The notes beneath the pieces are model-generated. The model was not told the origin of the DNA. It saw nothing but the letters and a program-made list of their open reading frames with translations, and searched no databases. Of a DNA stretch of 64,000 nucleotides, positions 5,019 through 56,535 are shown piece by piece. How positions within the stretch are numbered: position 1 is the first letter of the stretch; each line of letters starts with the position of its first letter. Origin of the DNA: Jiangella ureilytica (GTDB taxonomy: Bacteria; Actinomycetota; Actinomycetes; Jiangellales; Jiangellaceae); the NCBI RefSeq assembly GCF_004348545.1, contig NZ_SMKL01000007.1, forward strand, positions 1-64,000, given 5' to 3'. Position numbers and translations under genes: made by a program.

Positions 5019-6074
5019 GTGACCGAAACGATCATGGCTCGCGAGATCGCCGAGCAGCCCGAGGCGCTGGCCCGGACGCTCGACGCGCTGCTGCCGCTGC
5101 GCCCGGAGCTGCGCACGCTGACCGAGGGCCGGCGCGTCGTGCTGTTCGTGGCCCGCGGGTCGTCGGACAACGCCGCGATCTACGGCCGATACCTGCTCGA
5201 GGTGCACGCGGGCGTCCCGGGCGGGCTGGCCGCGCCGAGCGTCGCGACGCATTACCACGCCGACCTCGACCTCTCCGAAGCCGTCGTCGTGTCGGTGTCG
5301 CAGTCGGGCGAGACCGAGGAGATCGTCGAGACGCAGGCATGGGCCGCCGCGCACGGCGCCCGCACCATCGTGGTCACGAACGACGGCGGCAGCTCACTCG
5401 CCGCCGCGGCCGACCTGGCGCTGGTCACGCGCGCCGGCGCGGAGCGCGCGGTGCCGGCCACGAAGTCCTACACCACGCAGCTGGCCGCCATGGCGGTGCT
5501 GGCCGACTCGTTCGCCGCCAAGCCGGGCACGCTCGACGCCGACCTCCGCCGCGTCCCCGCCGAGGTGCAGCGGCTGATCGAGCGGCGCGACGGCGTCGAC
5601 GAGGCGGCCGAGCGGCTGGCGTCGACGCCGGAGACGCTGGTCAGCGGCCGCGGCATCACCTTCGGCACGGCGCTCGAGACGGCATTGAAGCTCGAGGAGA
5701 CCTGCCTGCGCCCGGTGCGCGGGCTCTCCTACGCCGACCTGCGGCACGGGCCGATCGCCGTCGTCGACGCCGAGCACGTCGCGCTGCTGGTGTCGGCGGC
5801 CGACGGGCCGATGGTCGTCGGCCTCACGGAGCTGGCCCACGACCTGCGCCGGCGCGGGGCCGCGGCCACCATCGGCGTGGGCGGCGACGCCGCGTTCGCC
5901 GGCGCCGTCGACGTCTGCGTCACCGGCCCGGACCTGCCGGAGTCGGTGGCGCCGCTGGCGCTCGTCGTTCCCGCACAGTTGACGGTCGAGGCGCTGGCGC
6001 GCAGGCTCGGGCTGGACCCGGACGCGCCCCGCGGGCTCTCCAAGGTCACCCAGACCGACCCGGCCGGCAGCTGA
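5019..6074 (+). CDS. SIS-domain amino-sugar phosphate deaminase/isomerase
   Basis: 351 residues with two SIS domains resembling the isomerase half of GlmS and the NagB-II/AgaS family. The N-terminus MAREIAEQPEALARTLDALLP is the family signature. Sugar-phosphate site motifs include ARGSSDNAA, SVSQSGETEEIVE and, in the second SIS domain, LKLEETCLRPVRGLSYADLRHGP. There is no glutamine amidotransferase domain, so it should act in the catabolic direction, most likely glucosamine-6-phosphate to fructose-6-phosphate. GTG start with AGGAG 9 nt upstream. The place between a DasR-like regulator and PTS IIB/IIA supports amino-sugar catabolism. Confidence 0.88.
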   Translation: MTETIMAREIAEQPEALARTLDALLPLRPELRTLTEGRRVVLFVARGSSDNAAIYGRYLLEVHAGVPGGLAAPSVATHYHADLDLSEAVVVSVSQSGETEEIVETQAWAAAHGARTIVVTNDGGSSLAAAADLALVTRAGAERAVPATKSYTTQLAAMAVLADSFAAKPGTLDADLRRVPAEVQRLIERRDGVDEAAERLASTPETLVSGRGITFGTALETALKLEETCLRPVRGLSYADLRHGPIAVVDAEHVALLVSAADGPMVVGLTELAHDLRRRGAAATIGVGGDAAFAGAVDVCVTGPDLPESVAPLALVVPAQLTVEALARRLGLDPDAPRGLSKVTQTDPAGS

Positions 6075-6114
6075 GCCGGCCCCGCACTCTCAGCACACCC
6101 AACGGAGGGGACAC

Positions 6115-6345
6115 ATGGACAAGGCCGAGCAGATCCTGGCGGCGCTGGGCGGCGCCGACAACATCGTCGAGATCGAGCCGTGCGCCACGCGGCTGCGCAC
6201 CGAGGTGCACGACGCCGCGCTGGTGGACGAGAAGGCGCTGAAGGCCGCCGGCGCCTTCGGCGTCATCTCGGCCGGGCAGGTGGTGCAGGTCGTGGTCGGG
6301 CCCGAGGCGGACACCATCGCCACCGACATCGAGGATCTGATGTGA
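6115..6345 (+). CDS. PTS IIB component, GlcNAc/glucose type
   Basis: A free-standing 76-residue IIB domain. The phospho-cysteine is Cys23 in EIEPCATRLRTEV, the family signature. It accepts phosphate from IIA and gives it to the sugar carried by IIC. An AGGGG-type ribosome site precedes the ATG. Its stop overlaps the GTG of the IIA gene by 4 nt, which indicates translational coupling. In most systems IIB is fused to IIC; here all parts are split, with IIC 3 kb away on the other strand. Confidence 0.93.
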   Translation: MDKAEQILAALGGADNIVEIEPCATRLRTEVHDAALVDEKALKAAGAFGVISAGQVVQVVVGPEADTIATDIEDLM

Positions 6346-46443: not shown

Positions 46444-46941
46444 CTACGGGCTGGTGCTGGCGAGCACGCCCCAGGTGACCAGTTTCTCCCGCAGCTCGGC
46501 GGGCGGGATCTCGTAGAGCAGGGCGGCCAGCGAGATGTCCTCGGACCGGATGGTGAGCACCGGGCTGCCGAAGTCGTTGCGCTGGCGCTGGATGGAGGCC
46601 ACGAAGGTGGCCAGCCGCTCGGCCTCGGGCGGTGCGTTGCGCAGCGCGTCGAGATCGAGGACGACCTTGCCCTCTTGGGCCGGGATACGGGACCGGGCGC
46701 CGTCGGACACCAGGGTGTCGACCGGGACGCCGTAGAACTCGGCGAGCTCAGCGATGCGCCGGATGGACGCCACGCGGTCGCCGCGTTCGTAGGAGCCGAC
46801 CACGACAGCGCGCAGCCGGCCACCGGACTTCTCTTCGACGGCCTGCAGCGAGAGCCGGCGACGCTTGCGCAGCGCGCGCAACCGTGCACCCACGACCTTC
46901 GCGAAGTCCTCCTCGGTCGAGTCGGGACTGCCGTCGTTCAT
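46444..46941 (-). CDS. bldD: BldD, c-di-GMP-responsive developmental regulator
   Basis: 165 residues. N-terminal XRE-type DNA-binding domain closely like Streptomyces BldD (LRALRKRRRLSLQAVEEKSGGRLRAVVVGSYERGDR ... AELAEFYGVP). The C-terminal domain carries both halves of the c-di-GMP motif: RxD (Arg121-Asn-Asp123) and RxxD (Arg132-Ser-Glu-Asp135), with 8 residues between. In Streptomyces c-di-GMP bridges two BldD protomers and keeps sporulation genes off. ATG at 46941 follows GGGGAG by 7 nt. It lies beside a GGDEF-EAL operon. Confidence 0.93.
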   Translation of the reverse strand: MNDGSPDSTEEDFAKVVGARLRALRKRRRLSLQAVEEKSGGRLRAVVVGSYERGDRVASIRRIAELAEFYGVPVDTLVSDGARSRIPAQEGKVVLDLDALRNAPPEAERLATFVASIQRQRNDFGSPVLTIRSEDISLAALLYEIPPAELREKLVTWGVLASTSP

Positions 46942-47073
46942 CGTCGAGCTCCCCAAAGGTGCCTCGTCCTCCGTACTGATCCGCCCGCACCAGCACGCCT
47001 GCGCCGCCCCCCTGGCAGGTCCCGGACTACGCCCGGACAGATCAGAGGATACCGGGCATTCGCGCCCGGTTGA

Positions 47074-47090
47074 TCACCGGACGTCCGTGA
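47074..47090. promoter_or_regulatory. Palindrome upstream of bldD
   Basis: TCAC-N9-GTGA centred on CGGACGTCCG, about 135 nt upstream of bldD. It resembles the BldD-type TnAC...GTnA pattern only loosely; an autoregulatory site is possible. Confidence 0.3.
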
Positions 47091-47115
47091 CCTTCTTCAG
47101 CTTCGCATGCTAAGA

Positions 47116-47159
47116 GGTGTGGCAGGAACACGCCAGCGGCACGTGTTCCACGTCACACC
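47116..47159 (-). terminator. Terminator of the GGDEF-EAL operon
   Basis: Two-part stem: GGTGTG with CACACC outside, GGAACACG with CGTGTTCC inside, 9-nt loop. It overlaps the stop codon of the GGDEF-EAL gene and separates the operon from bldD. Confidence 0.7.
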
Positions 47160-49387
47160 ATGCGTAACGGGACTCCTGGATTCCGCGCCTGCTCCAGGAC
47201 CACCTGGGCCGGCAGCGGCTTGGACATGAAGAATCCCTGAGCGCGGTAACAGCCGAGGTCGAGCAGCGTGGTGACCGCTGCCGGATCCTCGACCCCCTCG
47301 GCCACCGTGGTCAGGTTGAACGCCTCGGCGAGGCGGACGATCGCGGCGACGATGGCGCGATCGCCGCTGCTCTCGGCGAGCGCCGAGACGAAGCTGCGGT
47401 CGATCTTGAGGATGTCGACGGGGAGCTGCTTCAGCTGGGCCAGCGAGCTGTACCCGGTGCCGAAGTCGTCGATGGCGAGCGTGACGCCCAGGCCCCGCAG
47501 CCCGTTGAGGGTGGCCCGCACGTCGTCGATCTCGCGCATCACCGTGCTCTCGGTGATCTCGATGCCGAGCTCGGCGGGGGCCAGCCCGTACCGGCTCAGC
47601 AGGGTCGCGACGAAGCCGACGAAGTCGGCGCTGATGAGCTCGCCGGCGGAGATGTTCACGCGGACCAGGGGCGGCGGCACGGGCGACGTGCGCTTCCACG
47701 TCGCCAGCTGCCGGCAGGCCTCCTCGAGCACCCAGCGACCCAGCTCGGCGGCGAGGTTGATCTCTTCGACGACGGAGATGAAGGCGTCGGCGGCGAGCAG
47801 CCCGCGCTCGGGATGCTGCCAGCGCACCAGCGCCTCGACCCCGGTCATGCGGCCGTCGCGGAGGTCGAACTCGGGCTGGAAGTACAGCCGCATCTCGTTG
47901 TTGCTGATGGCGGTGCGCAGGCGCAGCTCGAGGTCGGCGCGGACGAGGAGTTTGGACCGCAGGTCGTCGTTGAACACCACTACCGAGTCTCCACCGCGCT
48001 CCTTGGCCTCGAGCAGCGCGACGTCGGCGTTGCCGAGCAGCTCGTCGACCGTGCTGGGTACCTCGCCGTTGACCACCACGCCGATGCTGGCGCTGCGGCT
48101 GATGGAGTGCCCGCCGACCTCGAGCGGCTCGGCGACGCGGTCGAGGATGCGCCGGGCGGCCCGCTCGGCCGCCGACGTGGACCCGATGTCGTGCAGCACG
48201 ATGACGAACTCGTCGCCCGCGAGCCGCGCGACGAAGTCGTGCGGACGGACCGAGTCGCGCAGCCGGTGGGCGACGGCCTGGATGAAGTTGTCGCCGACGG
48301 TGTGGCCCAGCACGTCGTTCACGGTCTTGAGGCGGTCCATGTCGGCGAAGAGGACCGCGAGCGGGGCGCGCGGGTCGGCGTCGAGCACCGCTTTGAGGTC
48401 CTCGACGAAGGCCCGGCGGTTCCACAGGCCGGTGAGCTCGTCGTGGTACGCCTGATGGTGCAGGCTCTCCTCGGCCGCGACCCGGGCGTCGAGCTGCACC
48501 AGCAGTGCGGCGATGGCCCGCAGCGCCCGCACCTCGGCGCGGGTCCAGATGCGGTCGCCGAAGTGGATCAGCCCCAGCACGCCGAGCGTGGTGTCGTCGT
48601 GGATGAGCGGCACCATGGCCAGGGAGACCTCGGGCACGCCGGAACCGGCGCGGACCCGCTCCTGGTATTCGAGCTGCCCGTCGGACGGCCGGGTGATGAA
48701 CGGCTCGCGCTGGTCCTTGATCATCGCGAAGATCGCGTCGTCGGTCTCCCACGGCACGATGCCGAGCGGATCGGGCTCGGGCACATCGCGCCGCCGCGGC
48801 CATTCGTCGACGAGCACGCTGGCCTGCAGCTCGGGATCGTTGTGCCGGAGGAAGCAGGTGTCGGCGCCGAAGTAGCGGCCCAGTTCGCCGAGCACGCGGT
48901 ACAGCGTCTCGGCGAGGTCGCGGGCGGTGACGCTCATGAGCTCCGCGGCGACGTAGGTGACCAGGGCGTCGAGGCGCCCGTGCTGGTCAGTGACCTCGCC
49001 CGCCTCCATGACCGCCGTGCACAGCTGGGCGGAGACCGTCAGCAGGTCGCGGTCCTTCTGCGAGTACGACCGGCCGTCGAGGCGCACGAGGCAGAGGCTG
49101 CCGCGGAAGTCGCTGTAGGCCACCCGGGCGGCCATGACGCCGACGCCGGAGGCGGTGGTGTGCTCGACCAGCGCGCCCGTGGGATCGGCGGCGGCCTGCG
49201 CGGTGACGGCACGGATGGCCTCGCGCATGACGGTGATGTCCTTGCCGTATACGCCGGACTGGGCCGCGCTGCCCCACGAGACCAGCGGCATGCCGCCGTC
49301 GACCGCGAGCACGTCGGCAGAGATGGAGTCCGTGGCCCGAGCCAGCGCCTCGAGAAGTGGCTGGATCGTCTCCGGGTCCATCTTCAT
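47153..49387 (-). CDS. GAF-GGDEF-EAL cyclic-di-GMP enzyme
   Basis: 744 residues: an N-terminal region with a weak GAF-like or roadblock-like fold (1-130), a GAF domain (about 145-300), GGDEF (315-480) and EAL (490-735). The cyclase site is AGDEF (390-394), usually active, and the allosteric RxxD is RPHD (381-384). The phosphodiesterase part keeps Glu in GVEALVRW, ESTVM, DDFGTGYSS, KIDRSFV and AEGVE, so both activities may work. It resembles M. tuberculosis Rv1354c. ATG overlaps the stop of the ThiF-nitroreductase gene. Not membrane-bound. Confidence 0.93.
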   Translation of the reverse strand: MKMDPETIQPLLEALARATDSISADVLAVDGGMPLVSWGSAAQSGVYGKDITVMREAIRAVTAQAAADPTGALVEHTTASGVGVMAARVAYSDFRGSLCLVRLDGRSYSQKDRDLLTVSAQLCTAVMEAGEVTDQHGRLDALVTYVAAELMSVTARDLAETLYRVLGELGRYFGADTCFLRHNDPELQASVLVDEWPRRRDVPEPDPLGIVPWETDDAIFAMIKDQREPFITRPSDGQLEYQERVRAGSGVPEVSLAMVPLIHDDTTLGVLGLIHFGDRIWTRAEVRALRAIAALLVQLDARVAAEESLHHQAYHDELTGLWNRRAFVEDLKAVLDADPRAPLAVLFADMDRLKTVNDVLGHTVGDNFIQAVAHRLRDSVRPHDFVARLAGDEFVIVLHDIGSTSAAERAARRILDRVAEPLEVGGHSISRSASIGVVVNGEVPSTVDELLGNADVALLEAKERGGDSVVVFNDDLRSKLLVRADLELRLRTAISNNEMRLYFQPEFDLRDGRMTGVEALVRWQHPERGLLAADAFISVVEEINLAAELGRWVLEEACRQLATWKRTSPVPPPLVRVNISAGELISADFVGFVATLLSRYGLAPAELGIEITESTVMREIDDVRATLNGLRGLGVTLAIDDFGTGYSSLAQLKQLPVDILKIDRSFVSALAESSGDRAIVAAIVRLAEAFNLTTVAEGVEDPAAVTTLLDLGCYRAQGFFMSKPLPAQVVLEQARNPGVPLRMV

Positions 49388-51516
49388 AGGTTGCTCCCTG
49401 CCTCCAGGGCGTCCCGGACGGTGCGGTGGGCAGACAGGCGGCGGCTCCGGACGCTGACGTTAGGAGCGTAGCCGATCCGCATCACCAGCGCGACGTGCCT
49501 CCGGTCCAGACCGGTGACACCGCCGAATTCATCGTGCAGGCGGCGAAGCCGGTCGGCGTAGCGGGGCGACAGCTCCTCGTAGTCGGCGTCGTCGACGGCG
49601 TAGATGAACACCGGTGACGTGGGGTGTACCGCCAGCCCCAGCCGCTCGGCCTCGATCCAGACCCGCTCGACCGCCTGGCCGCCGCGCACGTAGTCGGCCT
49701 GCGACGACCCCGCGACGGAGAGGACGGCCAGCCCGGCGGCGGCGTCGATGCGGTCGCGGGTGGACTCGCCGAGGGCCCGGCCGAGGTCCTGCTCGGCCAG
49801 GACGGCCATGACGTCGGCCCGGCGGGCGACGCTCAACTTGGCGAGATCGGAGCGGTCCAGCTCGAGGGTGCGGACGTCGATGCCCCAGTCGAGCGCGTCG
49901 ATGCCGGGCCAGCGCAGCTCGCGCATCATCTCCCGGTGCAGGTGCTCGGTGAGGTAGCGCAGCCGGTCGGACTCGCCCAGCAGCTCGGCCAGCTCGTGCA
50001 GCCGGTCGCGGTCGGTGACGAGGTGCAGCTCGGCGTCCTCGGCGGCGGCCGCGGCGCCCAGCACGGCGCCGGTCCCCGCCGGCAGCGGGACGGGCTCGTG
50101 GAAGTGCCGGTTCGAGACCCGGCGCAGCATGCCGTCGTACAGCGCGGCGAGCTCCGGGTCCGTACCGGCGCCGAAGCGCAGGCGCGCGACACGGTCGCCG
50201 TCGGGCCGTATCTCGACGTCGCCGAGCAGGCCGTGCCGGGCGGCCGCGACCCGCGCGTTGAACAGCGCCGCGCCGATGGCGACGTGGCTGCCGCGGTACG
50301 CGACGTCGAGCGTGGAGGTCTGCGCCGGGTCGAGGTCGATGTCCAGGCCCTCAGGGCCGAGGGTGAAGAGCCACGGCTGCGTGTTGCCGCCCGACGGCGC
50401 CAGCCGCGCGGCGTGCGCGACGGCGGCCCGCGACTCGGCCGGCACCGGCTCGGGGTCGCGGACGAGGTCGGCACCGAGGTCGGCGGCGGCGGCCGCCGGC
50501 GGCTCGGCCAGCTTGGACAGCACGACGTCGAGGTCCACCCGGGCCCGTCCGGACGACAACGGCGCACCCAGGGCGAGCCGCCGAACGGCGGCGGCCACCG
50601 ACGCTGCGCCCAGTGTGATGTCGCCGCCCAGCTGCGGCCAGGTGTTGAGGCTCTCGTCGACCTCCGCCATCGAGGCGGCCATCGACGCCGACAGTTCGGC
50701 CGGCTCCAGTACCCGCATCACGTACGGGACCCTGTCGTGCGTCGACAGGCCCGCAAGGTCGGCCGGGCGCGCTTCGCCGAGAAGCCCGTGGAACAGCGGC
50801 CGGTTCGGCTCGAGGTCGTACCGCTCGACGTCCAGCAGACCGCGATCGCTGGTCTCCATGATGACCGGCAGGCGGTGCCGCCGCGCGGCTTCGCGCACCG
50901 CCAGCTTCAGGTCGAACGAGTCGCACTCCTCGACGACGATGTCGAGGCCGTTCAGGAAGTCGTCGATCGACTCCAGGGTCACACCGGACGGCTCGATGCT
51001 GACCTCGAGGTACGGGTCCAGCTCCGCGATGCGGCGGGCCGCCACGACCGCCTTGTTCACACCGAGGTCGAAGATCGTCGCCGGGATGCGGTTGAGGTTG
51101 GACAGCTCGATCTCGTCGAAGTCGGCCAGCCGGATGTGCCCGCAGCTGCGCTCCAGCGCCAGCGTGTGCGCGATCGCGTGACCGACGCTGAGGCCGACGA
51201 CGCCGACGGAGAGCCGGCGCAGCCGTTGCTGCTCCTCGGCGGTGATCTTGTTGCGGTTGCGGTTGGTGCGCAGCGTCTGGAAGGCCTCGGGCCCGAGCAG
51301 GTGCACCAGGGTGCGCCGCCACGGGTAGAAGTACCACCGCGTCGGCTCGTCGACGATCTCCGGGGAGGGCGCGGAGAGCAGCCGCGCGAGGTCACGCCGC
51401 TGCTGCTCGATGGTGTCGACGACCTGTACCGTCGGATCCGTCCTCAGGCCGGCCAGCAGGGAGGGGTCGTCCACAAGCTCGGGGCGCCAGCTGGCCCCGT
51501 TCGTGGCATCGGTCAT
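49384..51516 (-). CDS. ThiF (E1-like)-nitroreductase fusion, Rv1355c/MoeY-like
   Basis: 710 residues. The N-terminal half is an E1/ThiF Rossmann domain (VGVVGLSVGHAIAHTLALE, then LADFDEIELSNLNRI and GVNKAVVAARRIAELDPY), without the CxxC zinc pairs or a clear catalytic Cys. The C-terminal half is nitroreductase-like (ESRAAVAHAARLAPSGGNTQPWLF ... SNRHFHEPVPL). This is the domain order of M. tuberculosis Rv1355c (annotated moeY). The substrate is unknown. The ATG at 51516 overlaps the GNAT-like gene, and the stop overlaps the GGDEF-EAL start. Confidence 0.9.
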   Translation of the reverse strand: MTDATNGASWRPELVDDPSLLAGLRTDPTVQVVDTIEQQRRDLARLLSAPSPEIVDEPTRWYFYPWRRTLVHLLGPEAFQTLRTNRNRNKITAEEQQRLRRLSVGVVGLSVGHAIAHTLALERSCGHIRLADFDEIELSNLNRIPATIFDLGVNKAVVAARRIAELDPYLEVSIEPSGVTLESIDDFLNGLDIVVEECDSFDLKLAVREAARRHRLPVIMETSDRGLLDVERYDLEPNRPLFHGLLGEARPADLAGLSTHDRVPYVMRVLEPAELSASMAASMAEVDESLNTWPQLGGDITLGAASVAAAVRRLALGAPLSSGRARVDLDVVLSKLAEPPAAAAADLGADLVRDPEPVPAESRAAVAHAARLAPSGGNTQPWLFTLGPEGLDIDLDPAQTSTLDVAYRGSHVAIGAALFNARVAAARHGLLGDVEIRPDGDRVARLRFGAGTDPELAALYDGMLRRVSNRHFHEPVPLPAGTGAVLGAAAAAEDAELHLVTDRDRLHELAELLGESDRLRYLTEHLHREMMRELRWPGIDALDWGIDVRTLELDRSDLAKLSVARRADVMAVLAEQDLGRALGESTRDRIDAAAGLAVLSVAGSSQADYVRGGQAVERVWIEAERLGLAVHPTSPVFIYAVDDADYEELSPRYADRLRRLHDEFGGVTGLDRRHVALVMRIGYAPNVSVRSRRLSAHRTVRDALEAGSNL

Positions 51517-52229
51517 CGTGTGCCCGGAACCTCCGTGCCCGTCGCGGTGCGGAACTCGTTCTCGAACAGACGGCGCTGTTCCTCGGTGGCGCGCCCCACC
51601 GCCGTCGCGCCGTCCCACGTCAGCATCGTCGTGCGGTAGCGATCGTCGGGGTAGCGGGCCGGGATGACGCCGGGCAGTTCCTCGGCGCCGGAGCTGGCCC
51701 AGCGCGACGCCGCGTGCTCCGCCGCCGAGCAGTAGGCGTAGCGCACCCCGAGCAGCCGCATGGCGTGCACGAACGCCCTCGACATGAGGTCGGCCAACGC
51801 GGACTTGTGCTCCGACGTAGCGTCCACCCAGACGCCCTTGAGCTCGATGACGCCGTCCGGCAACGCGGACTCGATCCAGTGACTGGCCAGCGAGGCCGAC
51901 ACCGGCTCGCTGACGAGCTCGCGGGGCGCGTAAGCGTCGCGCACGGATCGCAGCGGGCCGTTGACGTAGCAGCCGGCCCAGACCTTCCCGCTGTCGTCGG
52001 ACACGATGGCGAACACCGGTGCGCTGGAATCCTGCGTGGCCACGGGCAGCGCCAGGGCGTGCTCGACGCGATGGCGCCGGTAGCTGGCCCGGGCGCCGTC
52101 GGCGTATGCGGTCCAGTCGTCGAACCGCTGGCTCGGCGTGGAGAAGCGCATCGTCATGCCCGACGCCTCGTCCCGGAAGCGGTACAACGCGCGGGTGGTG
52201 TCGGCGACAGGCTTGAGGGGGCTGGTCAT
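51513..52229 (-). CDS. GNAT-fold-like protein heading the c-di-GMP operon
   Basis: About 238 residues. The layout (RFRDEASGMTMRFSTPS..., then FAIVSDDSGKVWAGCYVNGPLR, then ELKGVWVDATSEHKSALADLMSRAFVHAMRLLGVRYAYCSAAEHAASRWASSGAEELPG) fits a GNAT or acyl-homoserine-lactone-synthase-like fold, with no clear P-loop for CoA. I do not recognise the family. It is the first gene of a three-gene operon with ATGA overlaps. ATG at 52229. Confidence 0.75.
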   Translation of the reverse strand: MTSPLKPVADTTRALYRFRDEASGMTMRFSTPSQRFDDWTAYADGARASYRRHRVEHALALPVATQDSSAPVFAIVSDDSGKVWAGCYVNGPLRSVRDAYAPRELVSEPVSASLASHWIESALPDGVIELKGVWVDATSEHKSALADLMSRAFVHAMRLLGVRYAYCSAAEHAASRWASSGAEELPGVIPARYPDDRYRTTMLTWDGATAVGRATEEQRRLFENEFRTATGTEVPGTR

Positions 52230-52309
52230 GGCATCCGCACCTGGCTTCACGGCTCCGTCCGGTCTGCTCGATCTGTACCGTATGCGCCGTTCAGGTTATA
52301 GATGAATTA

Positions 52310-53153: not shown

Positions 53154-54413
53154 ATGTCTGTTTCCCCGGCTTCCTACCGCGAGGCGTTCGCGGCGACCGA
53201 GTTCCGCTGGCTGTGGTCCGCGCACCTGCTGTCGGTCGTCGGGGACCAGCTCGCCCGCGTGGCGCTCACGCTGCTGGTGTTCGACCGGACGGCGTCGGCC
53301 GGGCTGGCGGCGCTCACCTACGCGCTGACCTACCTGCCGGACCTCGTCGGCGGCGCGGCGCTGGCCGGGCTCGCCGACCGCTTCTCCCGCCGCGGCGTCA
53401 TGGTGGTGACCGACCTCGCCCGGGCCGGCCTCGTGGCGATCATGGCCGTCCCCGGCGTCCCGCTGGCCGGGCAGATGGCGCTGCTGGTCGTGGTCCAGCT
53501 GCTGACGGCGCCGTTCTCGGCCGCACGGCAGGCGGCGCTGCCGGACATCCTGAGCGGCGACCGGCTCACGCTCGGCCTGGGGATCTTCTCGATGACGTAC
53601 CAGGTGGCGCTCGTCGTCGGGTTCGGCGCGGGCGCGGCGCTGGTGGCCCAGCTGGGCGTCTCCGCGGCGCTGCTGATCAACGCGGCGACATTCGCGCTGT
53701 CGGCGCTGCTGATCGCCCGCGGCGTCGGCCCGCACCACCCCGTCGCCCCCGCCGTCGACCCGCGGACGGCCGGCGCCGGTCAGTGGGCGACCATCCGGGC
53801 CGGCTGGCGGGTCGTGGCCGGCGACCCGCGGCTGCTGACGCTGCTCGCCATCGCCTGCTGCTCGGGGTTCTACGTCGTGCCCGAAGGGCTCGCCGTGCCG
53901 TATGCGGCGGAACTCGGCACCGGCCCGGCCGGCGTCGGCTGGCTGCTGGTGGCCAACCCCGTCGGCACCGTCATCGGGATGCTGCTGCTGCGCCGGGTCC
54001 GGCCGGACCGGCGGCTGGCGCTCATGGGCCCGCTCGCGGTGGCCAGCAGCCTCGTGCTCATCCCGACGGGCTGGACGCCCGGGCTCGCCGTGACGGTGCT
54101 GCTGTGGACCGTCAGCGGGGCGTGCTCCGCCCACGACATGGTGGTCCAGGCCACCTACGTCGAGTCCGTCCCCGCGCACTGCCGCGGTCAGGCGGTCGGG
54201 CTCGCGATCGCCGCTCTCCGGGCGGCACAGGGTGTCGCCATCATCGCCGCGGGCATCCTGGCCCAGCTGCTGACGCCCTCGACGATCATTCTCGTCGCGG
54301 CGGTGCTGGGAGTCCTCGCTGCCGCGGCCGCATGGCACCGGTGGTCACGACTGGCCCCGCCCCGCGCCCATCCACCACCCCAGGGCGAGGCCGACATTCC
54401 CGGCCGGCCATGA
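53154..54413 (+). CDS. MFS transporter, MacA/EntS-like exporter
   Basis: 419 residues with twelve helices. It opens SYREAFAATEFRWLWSAHLLSVVGDQLARVALTLLVFDRT, the start of the DHA3-type drug or siderophore exporter group, with a motif-A loop GLADRFSRRGVMV. No ribosome site is seen before the ATG; a leaderless mRNA is possible. It is convergent with the minus-strand heptapeptide array that begins 33 nt beyond its stop. Export of a small molecule or peptide is plausible; any link to the array is inference from position. Confidence 0.9.
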   Translation: MSVSPASYREAFAATEFRWLWSAHLLSVVGDQLARVALTLLVFDRTASAGLAALTYALTYLPDLVGGAALAGLADRFSRRGVMVVTDLARAGLVAIMAVPGVPLAGQMALLVVVQLLTAPFSAARQAALPDILSGDRLTLGLGIFSMTYQVALVVGFGAGAALVAQLGVSAALLINAATFALSALLIARGVGPHHPVAPAVDPRTAGAGQWATIRAGWRVVAGDPRLLTLLAIACCSGFYVVPEGLAVPYAAELGTGPAGVGWLLVANPVGTVIGMLLLRRVRPDRRLALMGPLAVASSLVLIPTGWTPGLAVTVLLWTVSGACSAHDMVVQATYVESVPAHCRGQAVGLAIAALRAAQGVAIIAAGILAQLLTPSTIILVAAVLGVLAAAAAWHRWSRLAPPRAHPPPQGEADIPGRP

Positions 54414-54445
54414 ACGACCGGCTGATTCCGACGCACTGTGGGACC

Positions 54446-54469
54446 TCAGGTCCAGGTGTTGTCGCGCAT
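54446..54469 (-). CDS. Heptapeptide mini-gene, copy 1 (MRDNTWT)
   Basis: ATG at 54469; AGGAG 7 nt upstream. Thr7 codon is ACC. Last unit in the transcript direction; its spacer is identical to that of copy 2. Confidence 0.6.
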   Translation of the reverse strand: MRDNTWT

Positions 54470-54511
54470 GTCACCGCTCCTCTCGCTCCGCTCGGGCGCC
54501 GTGCTGTTCGT

Positions 54512-54535
54512 TCACGTCCAGGTGTTGTCGCGCAT
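54512..54535 (-). CDS. Heptapeptide mini-gene, copy 2 (MRDNTWT)
   Basis: ATG at 54535; AGGAG 7 nt upstream. Thr7 codon is ACG. Forms with copy 1 a recent duplication: the 42-nt spacers upstream of both are identical. Confidence 0.6.
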   Translation of the reverse strand: MRDNTWT

Positions 54536-54577
54536 GTCACCGCTCCTCTCGCTCCGCTCGGGCGCCGTGCTGTTCGT

Positions 54578-54601
54578 TCACGTCCAGGTGTTGTCGCGCA
54601 T
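54578..54601 (-). CDS. Heptapeptide mini-gene, copy 3 (MRDNTWT)
   Basis: ATG at 54601; AAGGAGG 8 nt upstream, the strongest ribosome site of the set. Thr7 codon is ACG. Confidence 0.6.
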   Translation of the reverse strand: MRDNTWT

Positions 54602-54648
54602 GTCCCGCTCCTCCTTCGCGTGCCTCGGGCGTCATGGACAGCCGGTTC

Positions 54649-54672
54649 TCACGTCCAGGTGTTGTCACGCAT
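54649..54672 (-). CDS. Heptapeptide mini-gene, copy 4 (MRDNTWT)
   Basis: ATG at 54672; AGGAG 6 nt upstream. The only copy with CGT for Arg2, a synonymous change. Thr7 is ACG. Confidence 0.6.
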   Translation of the reverse strand: MRDNTWT

Positions 54673-54714
54673 GTCCCGCTCCTCTCCGTCCGATGGGTCC
54701 AGGTCCGCTCCGAC

Positions 54715-54738
54715 TCAGGTCCAGGTGTTGTCGCGCAT
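54715..54738 (-). CDS. Heptapeptide mini-gene, copy 5 (MRDNTWT)
   Basis: ATG at 54738; AGGAG 7 nt upstream. Thr7 codon is ACC. Its upstream spacer shares the GAGCGGAGCGAGAGGAG stretch with copies 1 and 2. Confidence 0.6.
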   Translation of the reverse strand: MRDNTWT

Positions 54739-54781
54739 GGCACGTCTCCTCTCGCTCCGCTCGGGTGCTGTCCGGTCCGCC

Positions 54782-54805
54782 TCACGTCCAGGTGTTGTCG
54801 CGCAT
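54782..54805 (-). CDS. Heptapeptide mini-gene, copy 6 (MRDNTWT)
   Basis: ATG at 54805; AAGGGAG 7 nt upstream. Thr7 codon is ACG. Its spacer is unlike those of copies 1, 2 and 5. Confidence 0.6.
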   Translation of the reverse strand: MRDNTWT

Positions 54806-54853
54806 GACGGGTCTCCCTTCGTCCTCGTGCCGGCTGTGAGCGGGGTTCGTCGC

Positions 54854-54877
54854 TCAGGTCCAGGTGTTGTCGCGCAT
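54854..54877 (-). CDS. Heptapeptide mini-gene, copy 7 (MRDNTWT)
   Basis: ATG at 54877; GGAGGGAG 7 nt upstream. Thr7 codon is ACC. Confidence 0.6.
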   Translation of the reverse strand: MRDNTWT

Positions 54878-54922
54878 GGCACTTCTCCCTCCGCCTGGTC
54901 GTTGTGGGTGCGGTGGTGCCGG

Positions 54923-54946
54923 TCAGGTCCAGGTGTTGTCGCGCAT
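54923..54946 (-). CDS. Heptapeptide mini-gene, copy 8 (MRDNTWT)
   Basis: ATG at 54946; GGGGAGG 8 nt upstream. Thr7 codon is ACC. First unit in the transcript; it is also in frame with a longer ORF that begins at 55003. Confidence 0.6.
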   Translation of the reverse strand: MRDNTWT

Positions 54947-55003
54947 CGCTGTGACCTCCCCGTCTCGCGTCAGGGCAGCCTCGGTTCGGGCGCCGTCGCA
55001 CAT
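54923..55003 (-). CDS. 26-residue ORF ending in the heptapeptide
   Basis: A 19-residue N-terminal part (MCDGARTEAALTRDGEVTA) runs in frame into MRDNTWT of copy 8. AAGGAG lies 10 nt before the ATG. A further in-frame ATG at 55039 would add 12 mostly basic residues (MRTRRRGRRARP). It could be a leader-core precursor or simply upstream translation through copy 8. It may be coincidence, as only one copy has it. Confidence 0.4.
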   Translation of the reverse strand: MCDGARTEAALTRDGEVTAMRDNTWT

Positions 55004-55079
55004 CGGGCGAGCTCTCCTTCCGCGGCGTCGCGTTCGCATGGTCGAGAGTGCGGCAAACGCCCGCATTTGTGCACTCATT

Positions 55080-55100
55080 GTCGCCGACCCCGGCGGCGAC
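55080..55100. promoter_or_regulatory. Perfect 7-7-7 inverted repeat between the array and the GGDEF gene
   Basis: GTCGCCG and CGGCGAC around ACCCCGG, in the divergent gap (55004-55170) upstream of both the array and the GGDEF gene. TACTAT at 55116 could be the -10 box for the GGDEF gene. It may be an operator shared by both directions or a leader hairpin of the array RNA. Confidence 0.45.
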
Positions 55101-55170
55101 AGAACGTCCGGAATTCAGCTACTATGTGCCCACCCCGCATGACCCCGGCTAACTGCGCAGGTGAACGCGA

Positions 55171-56535
55171 GTGCACGGCTTGATTCGGCGAGCACGGAAG
55201 GTGGTCGCGGGCTGGGCCCTCTGGCAGGCGCCAGCGCCGGTCCGGATCCTCGTGCTCCTCGTGTCCGCCGTGGCCGTCGGCACCAGTGTCGGAACCGCTT
55301 TCCTGTTCCCCGTCACCACCACCGACCTCACCCGGTTCGCCATCCTGGCGGTCTGCGCGGTCATCGCCATCGAGCTCACCCGCCACATCGAGCGGCGCCG
55401 GGTCTACGGGCACAGCAGCTCGGTCGCCTACATCGACACCAAGGCGGTCTGGAGCTTCGCGGCGGTCATCGTGCTGCCGCCCGTCTTCGCCACGCTCATG
55501 GTGGTCCTGACCTATGTGCTCTCCTGGACCCGCGTGCAGCACGAGCGGCCCGGCGGCCTGGTGTACCGGTGGACGTTCTCCGGCGCGACGGTGCTCTGCG
55601 GCACCCAGGCGGCGGTCGCGGTGCTCGCGCTCGGTATGCACTCCTACCCCGGGGCGCCCGCCACGGCCGGGCTCGACGGCCTCGCCGACCTCGGCATCAT
55701 CGTGCTGGCGGCCACGCTGCGGTGGGGCCTCAACGTCGCGCTGATCATGGCCGCCATCGCGCTCAGCAAGCCCAACATCCAGGCCCGCGAGCTGTTCTCC
55801 AACTTCGGCGAGCAGATGCTCGAGGCCGGCGCCATGGGCCTCGGGCTGGTAGCTGCGGCCATCGTGGTGGCCAACCCGTTCGTCATGCCGGGCATCGTCA
55901 TCGCCATGGTCGCCCTGCACCGCGGCATCCTGGTCAACCAGTACCAGCAGGCCTCGCGCACCGACGCCAAGACCGGCCTCTCCACAGCCGGCTGGTGGCA
56001 CGACTTCGCCGAACAGGCCCTCGTGCGCGCCCGCGACCACGGCAGCACGCTGGGCCTGCTCATCGTCGACCTCGACCACTTCAAGCGGCTCAACGACACC
56101 TTCGGCCACCCGCACGGCGACCGCGTCCTCAAGGCGGTGGCCGAAGAGCTCATCGCCGAGATCCGCAACGAGGACGCCTGCGGCCGCTGGGGCGGCGAGG
56201 AGTTCGTGGTCGTGCTGCCCGACGTCGGCGACCGCACCAACCTGCGCAACGTGGCCGAGCGCATCCGCCGGCGCATCCAGTCCGTCGTGGTCGAGCCCCC
56301 GGCGCACCTCACGCAGACCGGCGACGCCACGGTCACGGCCTCCGTCGGAGGCGCCGTCTTCCCGTCGCCCGCCATCAACAGCCTCGACGAGCTGCTGCTG
56401 GCCGCCGACACCGCCCTCTACGCGGCCAAGAACGCCGGGCGCAACACCGTCCGGCTCAGTGGTGCCGACCAGCCGGCCGGTCCGAGCCAGCAGCCGCTGC
56501 CGCACCGGGCCGAGCCGCCGTCGGCGACGTCCTGA
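55171..56535 (+). CDS. Membrane-bound diguanylate cyclase (GGDEF)
   Basis: 454 residues. About six membrane helices in the first 250 residues, then a GGDEF domain. The active site is GGEEF (341-345) in GRWGGEEFVVVLPD, and the product-inhibition site RxxD is intact as RNED (332-335), so it should make c-di-GMP from two GTP under feedback control. No EAL domain. GTG at 55171 with AGGTGA 7 nt upstream. It is divergent from the heptapeptide array and 8 kb from bldD, whose product binds c-di-GMP. Confidence 0.92.
   Translation: MHGLIRRARKVVAGWALWQAPAPVRILVLLVSAVAVGTSVGTAFLFPVTTTDLTRFAILAVCAVIAIELTRHIERRRVYGHSSSVAYIDTKAVWSFAAVIVLPPVFATLMVVLTYVLSWTRVQHERPGGLVYRWTFSGATVLCGTQAAVAVLALGMHSYPGAPATAGLDGLADLGIIVLAATLRWGLNVALIMAAIALSKPNIQARELFSNFGEQMLEAGAMGLGLVAAAIVVANPFVMPGIVIAMVALHRGILVNQYQQASRTDAKTGLSTAGWWHDFAEQALVRARDHGSTLGLLIVDLDHFKRLNDTFGHPHGDRVLKAVAEELIAEIRNEDACGRWGGEEFVVVLPDVGDRTNLRNVAERIRRRIQSVVVEPPAHLTQTGDATVTASVGGAVFPSPAINSLDELLLAADTALYAAKNAGRNTVRLSGADQPAGPSQQPLPHRAEPPSATS

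Follow-up and report, generated by a model that had tools for sequence, protein, structure and literature searches.

Heptapeptide minigenes in an array beside a membrane diguanylate cyclase in Jiangella: a possible, so far undescribed system of peptide signalling

A row of genes for one heptapeptide

What might a bacterium gain from eight separate genes of 24 nt that all encode the same heptapeptide, and which protein might respond to the product? We addressed this question for a 64,000-nt stretch from Jiangella ureilytica, in the following called the window. On its minus strand, positions 54446–54946 hold eight exact copies of ATG-CGY-GAC-AAC-ACC-TGG-ACS-TGA, 24 nt each and all encoding MRDNTWT. 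Read directly from the sequence, units 1 to 8 lie on the minus strand at 54923–54946, 54854–54877, 54782–54805, 54715–54738, 54649–54672 (with CGT for Arg2), 54578–54601, 54512–54535 and 54446–54469, respectively. Start-to-start distances are 69, 72, 67, 66, 71, 66 and 66 nt, and due to this uneven spacing the units share no common frame. Upstream of every unit, a Shine-Dalgarno-like core, i.e., GGAGG, AGGAG or GGGAG, ends 6–8 nt before the ATG. The initial annotation had described this arrangement, i.e., eight minus-strand copies in 66–72-nt units, each with its own Shine-Dalgarno core, and both points were borne out. With up to three mismatches allowed, the 24-nt unit matched only the eight copies in the whole window; shuffled sequence gave a mean of 0.01 matches, and none of 100 shuffles reached eight. 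A genome-wide search of the source genome with up to one mismatch revealed no further MRDNTWT copy elsewhere. No gene follows downstream of the array on its strand in the window, and the reading as a known RNA was rejected, as Rfam gave no match over 54000–55600 at E 0.1.

Unit 1 is a candidate for an N-terminally extended form. An in-frame ATG 19 codons upstream at 55003, preceded by its own Shine-Dalgarno sequence, would yield 26 residues ending in MRDNTWT (54923–55003, minus strand); alternatively, the stretch may be a decayed unit. The same upstream in-frame start is found in G008, G010 and, as GTG, in G011.

In the window array, codons 1–7 show 23 pairwise nucleotide differences between copies, every one of them synonymous. 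Averaged over the copies, identity reaches 0.966 for the 24 coding bases, compared with 0.316 for bases 21–40 upstream and 0.304 for the 20 bases that follow the units, so that the earlier reading of purely synonymous variation between differing spacers (identity about 0.3) holds. Seven arrays were measured in this way, with coding identities of 0.93–0.99 versus 0.32–0.55 in bases 21–40 upstream. Over the 16 array stretches scanned, we counted 131 synonymous and 40 non-synonymous pairwise differences, the latter all from G002, G006 and G009. Codon choice varies between genomes as well: for Ser4, G004 uses AGC and G006 TCG, and Ser7 is encoded by AGC, TCC or TCG. Moreover, GTG and ATG starts stand side by side within the same arrays, an exchange that leaves the (fMet) peptide unchanged.

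Homologous arrays, whose absence from relatives would have spoken against a selected peptide, were found in 12/12 Jiangella genomes searched (family Jiangellaceae; pattern MRD-x-x-W-x), 10/12 of them with at most two mismatches. Depending on the genome, the main array consists of 4 to 13 units. Its peptide is nearly uniform inside a genome and different between genomes: eight main arrays are uniform for MRDNTWT, MRDNTWS, MRDNNWN or MRDTTWS, and four genomes (G002, G004, G006, G009) have mixed peptides within the main array. Non-synonymous changes between orthologues, which the initial annotation had named as counter-evidence, do exist, yet most arrays are homogenised, with the exception of these four. 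Selection on the peptide is evident from these patterns. Together, the arrays in all 12 genomes, the AGC and TCG codons for Ser4 and the mixture of ATG and GTG starts support the proposal of the initial annotation that selection acts on MRDNTWT-type peptides and on their translation, which we infer to take place in vivo.

Constancy of R2, D3 and W6 in the Jiangella set is partly due to ascertainment because the first array pattern had fixed these positions; at paralogous loci, outside this set, position 3 varies. Over all array peptides, the consensus is M-R-x-x-x-W-x, where Arg and Trp hardly change and the residues that separate them vary. The last residue is mostly Thr, Ser, Asn, Asp or Ala. 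It is Thr in the window; Asn is uniform only in G003 and in the two units seen in G017, and it occurs once in G009. Arrays also interrupt assemblies, i.e., in G017 (end of C16, start of C29) and G020 (end of C5, start of C6), where unit counts are therefore lower bounds, and in G016. The G016 array (L236, about 5882–6218, with an N gap in the assembly) has 15-residue units, MRDTNWVLRDTNWSW, with RDTNW duplicated inside the gene.

Genes of 24 bp can hence stand in conserved multi-copy arrays. Since gene finders with a minimum length miss them, similar minigene ligands may hide beside other receptors.

Linkage with a diguanylate cyclase and an MFS transporter

We searched 393 actinomycete genomes, blind to gene context, for MRxxxWx-stop occurring twice with 30–60 nt in between. 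Eighteen genomes matched, giving 27 array loci after neighbouring matches had been merged. Of two control patterns, the reversed one gave a match in a single genome (G178) and the out-of-register one in none of the 393. All 27 arrays are divergent, at a distance of 165–383 bp, from a cyclase-family match found separately in the same genomes. In the window, this cyclase is a membrane diguanylate cyclase of 454 aa encoded divergently from the array (55171–56535, plus strand).

In the reverse test we started from the cyclases. At least 55 family matches were obtained in 38/393 genomes, where up to six candidates were scored per genome. For 45 of the 55 matches listed, the 700 nt on the divergent side contain a minigene [MV]x(0-1)[RK]xxxW preceded by a ribosome-site core; sequence covered this stretch only in part at G018, G017, G030:C104 and G020:C6. 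On the opposite strand of these 700 nt, none of the 55 listed has such a minigene, and one was found 600–1360 nt downstream at a single locus out of the 48 of these that have sequence there. At two of the 45 minigene-bearing loci, Lys replaces Arg (MSKGVSWA); G048 and G019:C37 use GTG starts only. The form in the divergent region of G314 (C69), MERGVTWTYQLPQPR, is longer and apparently a relative of MLRGVTWT. Across 1,621 strand-kb of flanking stretches, only two matches to the minigene pattern encode a peptide outside the array peptides. The array and the cyclase are linked.

Ten of the 55 cyclase matches listed had no minigene (G016:C29:61751, G020:C3:297810, G367, G153, G250, G171, G037, G298, G361, G125). 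At G020:C3:297810–298340, a second cyclase-family match lies just downstream of a first one, contains an in-frame TAG and is probably a decaying duplicate. In the wider phylum (alignment A2), weak cyclase homologues were present in 3/346 genomes besides the source (four matches), and no RxxxW minigene was found there behind a ribosome site on either strand.

A search with the N-terminal domain of the cyclase revealed paralogous loci in Jiangellaceae that also have divergent minigenes, each locus with a peptide of its own. MRGNSWD is the second-locus peptide in six Jiangella; further paralogue peptides within the family are MRANSWD, MRDNKWSR, MRDNHWTP, MRDAHWES/MRDAHWNW and VRENCW. From another family, G030 has five cyclases and five peptides, i.e., MRGNNWT, MRSVQWA, MRGVNWV, MRGADWA/C and MRGVKWA. 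The other multi-locus genomes have two or three cyclases, again with a different peptide at each locus. Peptides from other families also include MRHTSWS (G027), MRDVHWG (G077), VRGWKWS (G048) and, in the f17 genomes, MLRGVTWT/I and MSKGVSWA, where each locus has one minigene unit.

On the other side of the window array, a gene for a major facilitator superfamily (MFS) transporter is convergent with it (53154–54413, plus strand) and ends 32 bp from the last array stop. The protein matches Pfam MFS_1 and MFS_3 above cut-off and scores under the curated cut-off of the nearest NCBIfam antiporter model. A full-length homologue is present at 28 of 40 array loci examined, the window included (the 45 minigene-bearing loci minus G219, G368, G306, G314 and G030:C104). 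Outside the source genome, these homologues are 41–93% identical to the window MFS, and in two other families they also stand beside an array (G048, 46%; G030:C407, 41%). A full MFS is absent from 12/40 loci, i.e., G021:C25, G019:C37, G027, G077, G030:C55, G030:C137, G030:C93 (with an MFS piece of 107 residues only), G258, G322, G337, G196 and G020:C6 (where the contig ends within the array). No MFS was found at the four f17 array loci examined, nor at any of the four cyclase loci examined that lack an array (G037, G171, G250, G367).

Six other neighbours, i.e., a ThiF protein, a GGDEF-EAL protein, an orphan (51513–52250), a BldD-like regulator, a lactonase and a second MFS, are found at all 12 Jiangella main loci and at none of the other 34 stretches compared. 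As these six stay behind while the MFS travels, we regard cyclase, array and often MFS as the unit and the rest as local context. Cyclase and MFS belong to the array unit, which goes beyond what the initial annotation had seen.

The cyclase as proposed receptor

The cyclase is our proposed cognate receptor, based on its Pfam assignment, linkage, motifs and predicted fold. It is laid out as a predicted S-component-like membrane domain (about residues 47–237) and a GGDEF domain (264–425) with GGEEF and RxxD. The PF00990 (GGDEF) match scores 131 bits versus a curated cut-off of 23.8. As GG[ED]EF and RxxD (I-site) are kept in 30/30 aligned cyclases, the enzyme is likely active and product-inhibited.

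For its N-terminal domain, we found no Pfam family such as PF07694, a scan of the full protein at E 0.001 giving GGDEF only, and no PDB chain by sequence. The AlphaFold2 model of the domain has a mean pLDDT of 90.2. Foldseek with this model returned nothing at E 0.001 and is not significant alone. When the Foldseek candidates were aligned with VIA-align, the 12 best rows were all ECF S-components (RibU, PanT, BioY, CbiM, ThiT and one unnamed) with Z 9.3–12.8, followed by 6.3; the best row (Z 12.8, rmsd 3.3 over 160 residues) falls in the range below about 13 in which, as the tool warns, Z can reflect a common helical-bundle arrangement. The membrane domain is predicted to resemble ECF S-components, whose six-helix fold is shared with known receptors. 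Lys/Arg loop counts predict eight helices with the N-terminus inside, which suggests that the S-like core would begin outside, inverted versus 5TMR receptors, whose core starts on the cytosolic side after helix H0, and that its pocket might face the cytosol.

For many membrane diguanylate cyclases, we know of no ligand. Partipilo and Slotboom (PMC11109136) describe the S-component fold in 5TMR receptors, among which several contain a GGDEF domain. Like these 5TMR/LytS-type receptors, the cyclase would combine an S-component-like membrane domain with a cytosolic output domain, GGDEF being among those known (PMC11109136). It differs in that its membrane domain has no Pfam match and in the opposite predicted orientation of the core, and the ligands given for the known receptors in this source are small molecules, e.g., pyruvate for BtsS, not encoded peptides (PMC11109136).

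In a tree of 30 cyclases, those paired with MRGNSWD form one clade, G004 and G006 are sisters, and MRDNTWT occurs in two separate places. Peptide types thus seem to track cyclase clades loosely, a pattern in line with co-inheritance that is no proof of co-evolution.

The intergenic region between cyclase and array (54947–55170) contains a recurring GACAAT motif, which in the window lies in the palindrome TGTCGCC...GGCGACA (55079–55101). Most Jiangellaceae loci have GACAAT at this place, some of them inside a TGTC...GACA palindrome, and the region is possibly a shared operator or promoter.

A proposed peptide signal and its alternatives

We consider it moderately probable that the locus is a module in which many gene copies are translated directly into a peptide ligand, which the MFS probably moves and which is sensed by its own cyclase. 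The minigenes, all of them with separate ribosome sites, would supply many copies of a leaderless heptapeptide, (f)Met-Arg-x-x-x-Trp-x, with no processing step; for comparison, the 7-codon gene of microcin C undergoes reiterative translation in vitro (PMC6495379). Where present, the MFS would carry the peptide across the membrane, most likely outwards. The divergent cyclase would be the cognate receptor; the peptide would bind to its S-component-like domain and change c-di-GMP output, which might result in autocrine or density-dependent control. Residues 3, 4, 5 and 7 would set the specificity of each channel, with Arg2 and Trp6 as a common handle. That the peptide is transported and bound, in which direction it moves, whether it raises or lowers c-di-GMP and on which membrane side it is sensed are inferences.

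This ligand–receptor reading is most favoured by the one-to-one pairing of cyclases and peptides, five each in G030 and two or three elsewhere, and also by the nearly constant Arg and Trp with variable residues in between. In its favour we further counted the 27/27 array linkage, the 45/55 cyclases listed in the reverse test, the travelling MFS, selection on the peptide, the cyclase motifs and the S-component-like prediction. Against it stand the 10/55 listed cyclases without minigene, the 12/40 array loci without full MFS, the non-significant Foldseek result with a best Z just under the level up to which the tool considers chance possible in helical bundles, the predicted inverted S-like core, the loose match of peptides with clades and the MFS score below the NCBIfam antiporter cut-off.

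Array and membrane cyclase, often with the transporter, look like a peptide signalling system of some soil actinobacteria that is so far undescribed; among the open-licence PMC papers listed in our searches, we found no report of such arrays or of a pair of peptide and diguanylate cyclase. It might be called peptide quorum sensing in a broad sense, in view of the genetic linkage and the pairwise specificity pattern. We see an even chance that it represents a new class of actinomycete cell–cell signalling, in which leaderless RxxxW peptides from multi-copy minigenes leave the cell through a dedicated MFS and are sensed directly by S-component-like cyclases, each genome having several insulated channels. 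If so, an encoded peptide would control c-di-GMP with neither kinase nor transcription factor in between. The genome itself seems to spell the ligand for a cyclase family, in up to five versions per genome, which makes ligand, specificity code and c-di-GMP effect testable with synthetic heptapeptides.

In RRNPPA quorum sensing, secreted propeptides are processed by proteases and the receptors are cytosolic. The precursor of yeast alpha-factor contains repeated pheromone units in one polyprotein that proteases cut; tandem repetition there also raises the copy number of one peptide signal, whereas the units found here are separate genes with separate ribosome sites. The arrays would share with RRNPPA systems a multi-copy short peptide signal (tandemly duplicated pheromone propeptides) and a nearby gene for the cognate receptor (PMC11343458). 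Unlike RRNPPA or Agr-type pheromones, they have no propeptide and no secretion or processing segment, and the partner is a membrane diguanylate cyclase.

As the main rival, purely intracellular action of the peptide is possible, at a distinctly lower probability than the module. The free heptapeptide would act on the cytosolic face of the cyclase as activator or brake with no cell–cell signal, copy number would set dosage, and the MFS would remove the peptide or be unrelated. This agrees with the predicted inverted orientation of the S-like core, with the array loci that lack a full MFS, and with the minigene units, in which we found neither signal sequence nor processing segment (6–8 residues, 15 in G016 and G314). 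It is at odds with a related MFS that travels with array and cyclase to paralogous loci and two other families while the six other neighbours do not.

We regard as unlikely a secreted or modified natural product in the manner of microcin C or biarylitides, i.e., a peptide or peptide–nucleotide antibiotic that the MFS exports and whose production the cyclase only regulates. Microcin C usually has a C-terminal Asn that is to be modified. Its precursors usually have seven residues, MRTGNAN in E. coli, and MccA is, as here, a directly translated 7-residue gene product that starts with Met-Arg and has no leader (PMC6495379); the N-terminal formyl group of the peptide can matter in that system (PMC6495379). 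MccA differs in being a single gene with an adenylating enzyme and, in E. coli, a C-terminal Asn, compared with tandem copies and a diguanylate cyclase partner here (PMC6495379). No MccB-type adenylating enzyme adjoins the array. A ThiF-domain gene does lie 3–5 kb from it in the window, but it is the only one, belongs to the Rv1355c family and is missing from all 34 stretches compared that are not Jiangella main loci; with a ThiF gene that does not follow the array, we dropped the microcin-C reading that the Met-Arg heptapeptide with ThiF and MFS nearby had raised. The biarylitide gene bytA is likewise tiny, directly translated and able to evade gene finders; its precursors have five residues and can be multi-copy, with up to six copies in some Lysinibacillus (PMC13417212). 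It encodes a pentapeptide cross-linked by a dedicated P450, unlike the seven residues with one aromatic found here (PMC13417212). The array peptides are not pentapeptides with an aromatic pair, the window peptide having a single aromatic residue, and no cross-linking P450 was among the eight neighbouring proteins scanned in the window; the biarylitide reading was rejected. Moreover, no other tested gene travels with the unit, and a natural product has no need for peptides that differ cyclase by cyclase.

Less probable still is a regulatory RNA or translation device, in which the repeated ribosome sites and mini-ORFs would act in cis or as a sink for ribosomes or tRNA, the peptide being a by-product. 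Every unit has a strong ribosome site and minigenes can be translated reiteratively, as described for the 7-codon microcin C gene in vitro (PMC6495379). A device of this kind is hard to reconcile with synonymous variation that keeps the peptide, including AGC or TCG for Ser4 and the ATG/GTG exchange, with a different peptide at each paralogue, or with the lack of an Rfam match and of a downstream gene on the array strand. Among the roles suggested in the initial annotation, a signal peptide fits best, while a precursor for tailoring enzymes and a leader series found no support at the locus. Chance, an assembly artefact or a mere DNA repeat has practically no probability left, since the linkage seen in different genomes refutes it. 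Slippage and recombination can spread tandem repeats, and the arrays do break assemblies (G016, G017, G020), but no shuffle reached eight copies, the out-of-register pattern matched no genome, all 27 arrays were linked, and spacers diverged while coding parts stayed.

The tandem pattern also matched five viral contigs. Four of these had no Shine-Dalgarno-like site or had differing units and the fifth had internal stops, and we took them as chance.

BldD binds c-di-GMP in Streptomyces. Beside the module, the stretch 46444–52250 (minus strand) encodes in all 12 Jiangella a BldD-like regulator, a GAF-GGDEF-EAL protein and the Rv1355c-family ThiF/nitroreductase protein; this c-di-GMP neighbourhood stays behind where the array occurs at other loci. 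The orphan at 51513–52250 (minus strand), a 245-aa protein with no Pfam or NCBIfam match, is kept at 12/12 Jiangella main loci.
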